A stretch of 64,000 nt of DNA from Harmothoe impar (taxonomy: Eukaryota; Annelida; Polychaeta; Phyllodocida; Polynoidae), in assembly GCA_947462335.1 (NCBI GenBank), contig OX381714.1, forward strand, positions 39,405,360-39,469,359, given 5' to 3'. Below the pieces are notes generated by a model. It had not been told where the DNA came from. It ran no database searches and saw only the letters and a list, made by a program, of their open reading frames with translations. Below, one piece after another: positions 4,882-37,682 of the stretch (position 1 is the first letter of the stretch; every line of letters begins with the position of its first letter). A program made the position numbers and the translations under genes.

Positions 4882-5866
4882 TGGCGTACATACGGGTACC
4901 CAGCAATGACATTTCCTACGATGCCCGAGGAGAGACATGCGAGGCGCTATCTCTGCCCACGATCAACAGCGTCGGCCTCTCTCCCCGGTTGACCGGCTCG
5001 CCGCTTCCGTCCCCGCCCAAGCCGCCCAACTCATCGTCGTCGGCGTCGTCGGCGGGGTCCCTGGTGGCTGGGGGAGTGGCCACAGTCAACAGCAACAACA
5101 ACTACCACCACTACCAGCACCATAACGGAAATAACCACGCGGCGCGCGGGCCCCTGCTCTTCTTCCCGCCCGACTTCCCCAGCCCGCCGCCGCTGACCCA
5201 TGCAGAGAACAACGTCGCCCCTGCCGATGCCGCCGCCGCATCCTGCCTGTCCATACCGGAAGCGGAAATGTTCCCCAGCCCTGTGTCCGGCACGTCGCCA
5301 TCGTCGCCAGTCAACACTGTCCGTCCGCTTCCGCCGCCCCCCGCCTCCTCGGCCGCCTCGTCACCTTCTGCGCCACTGGCCTCCCCCATCTCCAACATCG
5401 CGCCCCCGCCGACCGTCCTAGTCATGCCCTCTGGTAGTGGGGGCAATGGAGACGACGGCGCCGCCACTTCCGGTGCCGCTTCCGGCGGCGGTGGCGGTCG
5501 TCGATCGTCGCTGTCCTTATCCCTAGGCGCCGCTGGTGAGGGCGGGGCCGGCGTGGTCGACAACGGTAACGGCAACACCGGCGGAGGGCGTCGTGGCCTC
5601 TCGACCTCCTCCCCGGCGCCCTCGCACGACGCGGAAGAAGCGACGACGCCATTGCTGAGTCGCTACGACCCGTACCACGGCGTGACCTGCTTCGTGCACC
5701 ACCCGTTCACCCAGAAGCCGTTGGTCGGCGAGGAGGTCCGGGAGAGCCTCCAGCGGGCGCTGTCCTTTGGTGCCACCCAGATGTCGGCCCGCCTCAACCA
5801 CCACGACCTGGCGCCCACCGTGAGGAGCACCGAGGACGGCAGTCTACGGTCTGCGGACACCTTCAG
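4882..5866 (+). CDS. Gene 1 coding exon 1 (residues 1-328): disordered N-terminus and start of module 1
   Basis: The acceptor is CTTCACAG at 4874-4881 and the donor CAG|GTGAGT at 5867, leaving two bases of an Arg codon. The exon is GC- and CpG-rich. It has proline runs (residues 93-104, 150-155), an [11 protein letters not shown] stretch near 76-86, poly-Ala around 114-120 and poly-Gly around 201-240. Order begins near R261-Y-D-P-Y, giving strand GVTCFVHHP (267-275) of module 1. The GTG at 4881 is not taken as a start because animals use ATG. Without the split-ATG model, the first in-frame ATG is at 5268 (622-residue product). Confidence 0.85.

Positions 5867-37682: not shown

Follow-up and report, generated by a model that had tools for sequence, protein, structure and literature searches.

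A candidate tail-anchored gene of the polychaete Harmothoe impar and its family of four-module proteins with two kinds of C-terminus

We analysed a stretch of 64,000 nucleotides from the genome of Harmothoe impar (assembly GCA_947462335.1, contig OX381714.1, positions 39,405,360 to 39,469,359 of the forward strand; hereafter the window, numbered from its first letter), and more specifically a gene on its plus strand (hereafter the window gene) that an initial annotation, made from the letters alone, had described as built from four internal repeats. Our computations revealed four modules that keep a fixed order in the paralogs of this gene and in proteins of other species, and two kinds of C-terminus among them. 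We lean slightly towards the reading that the window gene is a member of a four-module animal family and encodes a C-terminally anchored membrane protein of the cytosolic face, the modules having been duplicated within one gene before the family spread.

Four homologous modules in one protein

The four internal repeats were borne out by family profiles, which matched in all six module pairs. With the largest set of sequences (17–20 rows per module, from paralogs and other species), the six pairs reached 96.1–99.3% probability over 83–93 columns. The ten proteins from other species described below yielded by themselves 80.6–99.0% over 49–87 columns, and a first set drawn from the Harmothoe impar genome only gave 87.6–98.0%. 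Reversed controls, which come from these two smaller sets, stayed at or below 1.9% and 1.0%, respectively. The self-alignment that had been proposed as a check was clear for modules 1 and 3 (none of 2000 shuffles as good), weak for modules 2 and 3 (p 0.017) and modules 1 and 2 (p 0.032, both from shuffles), and blank for the pairs involving module 4, so that it is the profiles that resolve all six pairs. Within the window protein itself, using module boundaries chosen by the analyst, a profile of three modules recovered the fourth (shuffles as good, per 1000: 9 for module 1, 2 for module 2, 0 for module 3 and 2 for module 4). Profiles of only two modules found modules 2 (6/1000) and 4 (13/1000) when made from modules 1 and 3, and module 1 (0/1000) when made from modules 2 and 3. 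The predicted structure of an intronless paralog (C11, see below; predicted template modelling score, pTM, 0.83) consisted of four strand-helix-strand-strand units, in line with the model that had been anticipated.

The first strands originally assigned to modules 2, 3 and 4 fit the alignments. The one assigned to module 1 (GVTCFVHHP, 5678–5704) did not match the module profile (340/1000 shuffles as good) and lies outside the family-profile match, which starts at residue 39 of the 490 in the joined sequence. Moreover, the N-terminus of paralog C7 (MGLRYVDIIP) directly precedes its first helix and aligns with a 10-residue stretch of the window protein at the start of module 1. The earlier first strand for module 1 is therefore probably wrong. 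An extra half-module at GVTCFVHHP was also considered and rejected, since the segment bears no resemblance to the modules.

We regard the duplication of the modules as solid. Modules 1 and 3 form the clear best pair in the profile comparisons; modules 2 and 4 (expectation value, E, 1.6e-13) match no better than modules 2 and 3 (1.4e-14) in the larger set, having matched better in the first set. A two-step duplication of the form (M1 M2)(M3 M4) is a possible route.

Relatives in Harmothoe impar and in other animals

Searching the genome with the joined protein returned 21 matches, 8 of which were exons of the window gene itself. The other 13 led to nine further genes, and hence to at least nine paralogs (C11, C7, C21a, C21b, C15, C20, C6, C12a and C12b). 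Their exons were located with module profiles in 20 stretches around the matches, and some weak family matches (E 0.006–0.98) were accepted on the strength of module profiles and splice sites. A match on C18 was left out because it looked like a fragment, two further weak loci (C7:18.68 Mb and C21:25.80 Mb) stand outside the member set, and exon 2 of C12b, about 46 kb from the other C12b exons, was assumed to belong to the same gene. Among these paralogs, C11 (33.79 Mb; L017 394–2679) is intronless; counted from its first ATG, its single open frame has 761 codons, and it ends in a CaaX box. Each window module best matched the C11 module at the same position (z 11.9, 9.9, 5.6 and 7.8 for modules 1 to 4), and modules 1 and 3 of C11 matched each other (z 10.9). 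In a tree of 21 modules, from which modules shorter than 70 residues were omitted, each position formed one group (uneven support: 87/98 for module 4, 39/44 for module 3, 90/67 for module 2 and 34/62 for module 1), indicating that the module order predates the paralogs.

Two features of individual paralogs were observed alongside. Just before module 1, C11 and several relatives carry PPPTY, which we take to resemble a WW-domain binding motif. In C21b, a splice acceptor has been locally duplicated in tandem: that of exon 6, together with the first codons (GEKLDTHQ), is present in about six consecutive copies at steps of 63 to 135 bases (L032 9186–9576).

A search with C11 yielded ten proteins from other species, namely seven close ones (46–81% identity) and three more distant ones: CAPTEDRAFT_225021 of Capitella teleta (P0010), Hypp429 of Branchiostoma lanceolatum (P0011) and LOC118425630 of B. 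floridae (P0012). A profile of C11 and these ten proteins, from which the window gene was excluded, scored 160 bits against residues 39–431 of the window protein (490 joined residues). This match, the collinear match to C11 module by module and the predicted structures together place the window protein in the four-module family. The three distant proteins have the same four modules in identical order, at 26–28% identity across nearly the whole core. They differ from the window protein in their CaaX ends (CSVM, CTLL and CILL, respectively) where the latter has a transmembrane tail, and the N-terminus of the window protein is longer than that of P0010.

Among the members scanned, no curated family turned up. 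In Pfam, no family reached the cut-off in six of the ten proteins from other species, and no family was matched by more than one of 45 module pieces (best E 0.0073). NCBIfam gave a single weak match (E 0.15) for 11 proteins, and no prokaryotic or viral relatives were confirmed. P0010, P0011 and P0012 are listed just as hypothetical or uncharacterized, and literature searches gave nothing on them. The window gene belongs to an animal protein family without a name, apparently unstudied and common to worms and lancelets. The initial annotation had guessed at DUF4177-like folds on the basis of the strand-helix-strand-strand order. That order did appear in the models, but DUF4177 (PF13783) was matched neither by the four window modules (E up to 10) nor by the 45 module pieces, in searches where the HMMER filters drop most matches above about 0.1. 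We are evenly divided as to whether the modules make up an undescribed fold family, in which four beta-alpha-beta-beta modules form one body without a close solved counterpart, most members are prenyl-anchored, one branch has traded the lipid for a transmembrane helix and one intronless copy has kept its CaaX box.

Two kinds of C-terminus

C-termini were counted in 20 members, consisting of the 10 genes of Harmothoe impar and the 10 proteins from other species (exon fragments P0001 and P0002 were excluded). A CaaX box ends 15 of the 20, including nine of the ten other-species proteins and paralogs C7 and C21a (CVIL), C21b (CTLL), C20 (CTIL), C6 (CIIM) and C11 (CCIL), at a pattern that a random protein fits in about 0.14% of cases. 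The box is common in the family without defining it, and the window protein itself ends in FFGL after a transmembrane segment:

37596 to 37652, plus strand: predicted transmembrane helix of 19 residues (counted back from the stop codon), presumed to insert into the membrane

The best 19-residue mean hydropathy in the 490-residue part scanned was 3.27, at this helix and 9 residues from the C-terminus, giving the window protein the single transmembrane segment near the C-terminus that characterises a tail-anchored sequence. Transmembrane tails after basic stretches occur in three of the 20 members (the window gene, C12a and C12b), and the tails differ. These three genes group together in the tree (82/85), with C15 adjoining at 95/91, and one anchor change on the tree suffices when the window gene and C12a are labelled transmembrane.

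The CaaX boxes of the family would be expected to be prenylated, and the CaaX end may represent the older anchor state. Leu is the last residue in 12 of the 15 boxes, a feature that favours geranylgeranylation, and cysteines nearby would allow palmitoylation. In SNAREs (Ykt6 versus the VAMPs) and in Rho/Miro GTPases, a core on the cytosolic side is likewise attached by either a prenyl group or a tail transmembrane helix, depending on the member; these are well studied and unrelated to the present family.

Exon map and intron positions

The window gene has eight exons on the plus strand, with consensus splice sites, that join into one frame (open from 4857 to 37682), and its introns 1 to 7 are in phases 2, 2, 1, 1, 1, 1 and 2:

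4857 to 5866, plus strand: exon 1, open from 4857 with the first ATG at 5268; low-complexity N-terminus, module 1 beginning at about 5786
29579 to 29761, plus strand: exon 2, with the helix, strand 2 (NCESV) and the start of strand 3 of module 1; the introns on both sides (1 and 2) are in phase 2
31366 to 31511, plus strand: exon 3, with the end of module 1 (LRLW) and strand 1 and helix of module 2; followed by phase-1 intron 3
34420 to 34575, plus strand: exon 4, with strands 2 and 3 of module 2 (IETV, LRIF); both ends phase 1
34786 to 34929, plus strand: exon 5, covering module 3 from strand 1 (GVRDFCP) through the helix (KRWV) to strand 2 (LKSV); both ends phase 1
35498 to 35749, plus strand: exon 6, completing module 3 with its strand 3 (LRVF) and opening module 4 with strand 1 (YVTFTPV) and the helix (CAWI); both ends phase 1
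36622 to 36772, plus strand: exon 7, from strand 2 (CCESV) to the start of strand 3 of module 4; followed by phase-2 intron 7
37445 to 37682, plus strand: exon 8, with the end of module 4 (VRLY), a Pro-rich linker, an Arg/Lys-rich stretch, the transmembrane segment, a 9-residue tail and the stop codon

Exon 2 has a near-identical counterpart in record P0001 and exon 6 has one from another species (P0002), and no exon equals one module. The span first proposed for the gene (5676–37480) needs a slight extension, the coding region ending at 37682. A product of 751 residues could not be established, as the protein has 622 residues when exon 1 is translated from its first in-frame ATG (5268) and 759 when the whole open frame from 4857 is counted. 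The peptides quoted for the modules do lie in plus-strand open frames, except LRLW and VRLY, which are formed by splicing at introns 2 and 7.

As had been pointed out from the sequence, introns 2 and 7 both split an Arg codon in phase 2 (LR^LW and VR^LY) and have an identical offset (0) relative to this Arg. Likewise, a Gly codon is split in phase 1 by intron 3 as well as by intron 6, but these two are one residue apart (–8 versus –9, with the final residue of strand 2, the ETV/ESV strand, as reference). In simulations with six in-module introns and varied models of module length and phase, at least two coincidences within one residue arose by chance in 0.6–2.4% of cases, and at least two exact coincidences in 0.05–0.27%; the actual introns give one exact coincidence and one that is a residue off, and the test was set up after the coincidences had been seen.

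Across the paralogs, the listed exon ends carry AG and GT, or GC in exons 2 and 4 of C7 and exon 4 of C21a, apart from an additional copy of the exon 6 start in C21b and a C15 exon 2 marker placed one codon late (its AG is seen). The GC donor of intron 4 in the close paralogs C7 (L030 9158–9319) and C21a (L034 8830–8991) was observed in passing. Wherever both adjoining exon ends could be read, introns 1 to 6 recur. Five of the nine multi-exon members have intron 7, namely the window gene, C12a and C12b as well as C15 and C6, for which only the acceptor side was found. The other four (C7, C21a, C21b and C20) lack it, and in these the last exon continues through strand 3 as far as the stop codon. 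In a tree rooted with Branchiostoma, the four members without intron 7 grouped with Capitella (89/89) and the five with it grouped with the C11 clade (84/82), so that, leaving out the intronless C11, one gain or one loss suffices. Two further introns, both in phase 0, were seen: an extra one in C6, before strand 2 of module 3, and one in C12a, where module 4 starts.

Shared introns had been put forward as classic evidence of exon duplication, for which suggestive is the better word, given one exact pair, one pair off by one and none shared by modules 1 and 3. Under exon duplication, an ancestral module would have had a phase-1 intron before strand 2 and a phase-2 intron in strand 3, both having since been lost from the other modules, a scenario that we hold only tentatively and with more doubt than trust. 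It would account for the match of introns 2/7 exactly and 3/6 within one residue in equal phases, at the low chance given above, and it is consistent with the sites of introns 3 and 6 being retained in the paralogs in which those exons were read. Introns 3 and 6 also bracket exons 4 to 6, which amount to 552 nt or two module periods in phase 1-1, a span that would fit recombination between copies of one intron; possibly, introns 3 and 6 are such copies. Yet modules 1 and 3, the closest pair, have no intron in common, the patchy intron 7 fits a single gain or loss, and the phase-0 intron found only in C6, at nearly the same loop of module 3, hints that this loop may simply attract introns. These same three observations speak for coincidence, or for introns inserted in parallel at the AG|G sites of similar loops and strands, with a module duplication that left no intron trace, a reading to which we would give about an even chance. 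It is further favoured by the AG|G splice consensus, which by itself largely leads to phase-2 Arg and phase-1 Gly. Against coincidence stands the simulated chance of two matches within one residue, which was at most 2.4% in the settings tried; against reading that figure in favour of exon duplication stands the post hoc design of the test.

Elsewhere in the window, intron 1 contains a dispersed repeat of about 300 bases (6602–6905), with at least dozens of copies at about 80–96% identity on many chromosomes. Short-period tandem arrays (CACT; a 10-base unit; TA; 21/42-base units) lie at 2971–3222, 9107–9360, 18753–19050 and 48098–48310, and the long open frames with repetitive peptides in these arrays are probably not genes.

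Proposed role of the protein

Taken together, these data would fit a history in which one gene acquired its four homologous modules by internal duplication ahead of the spread of the family, and in which the CaaX box of most members serves as a prenyl anchor. In the window gene and its two nearest paralogs (C12a and C12b), a tail-anchored transmembrane helix would have replaced the box. Since basic residues flanking a helix stay cytosolic (the positive-inside rule), the Arg/Lys-rich stretch before the inserted helix should keep the modules facing the cytosol, the side that a prenyl group would also give. The core could then act as a platform that brings partners to the membrane, and a membrane-tethered cytosolic scaffold or adaptor, non-enzymatic in nature, is the most likely role of the window protein.

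Several points weigh against this reading. The scaffold role is drawn solely from the repeat architecture and the anchor, and no catalytic motif was noticed in the window protein, for which no systematic search was made. As single sequences, module 4 and the other three modules showed no similarity (p 0.31, 0.31 and 0.90, from shuffles), and the profile of modules 2 and 3 missed module 4 (109/1000 shuffles as good). With regard to the anchors, the last exon found for C15 ends without a CaaX box or transmembrane segment, the predicted end of P0009 diverges from its relatives, and the window gene forms a long branch whose place in the tree is unsure. The ATG at 5268 is only a candidate start, and there may be an upstream start exon. 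The modules might instead be ligand-binding domains (ACT-like, with half a ferredoxin-like fold), making the protein a membrane-bound small-molecule sensor rather than a scaffold. We consider this quite improbable. The second half of the fold of ACT and ferredoxin-like domains is absent from the predicted models, and no sequence match to such domains was found.

With the membrane-tethered scaffold as the preferred reading, the anchor swap makes the family of the window gene more than a plain repeat protein, as it offers a natural comparison of lipid and helix on one core. Given the conserved exon map, one or two outgroup genes would be enough to decide on exon duplication. Finally, the four-module core and the prenylation motif have been kept from annelid to lancelet, which makes a membrane role of the family directly testable.
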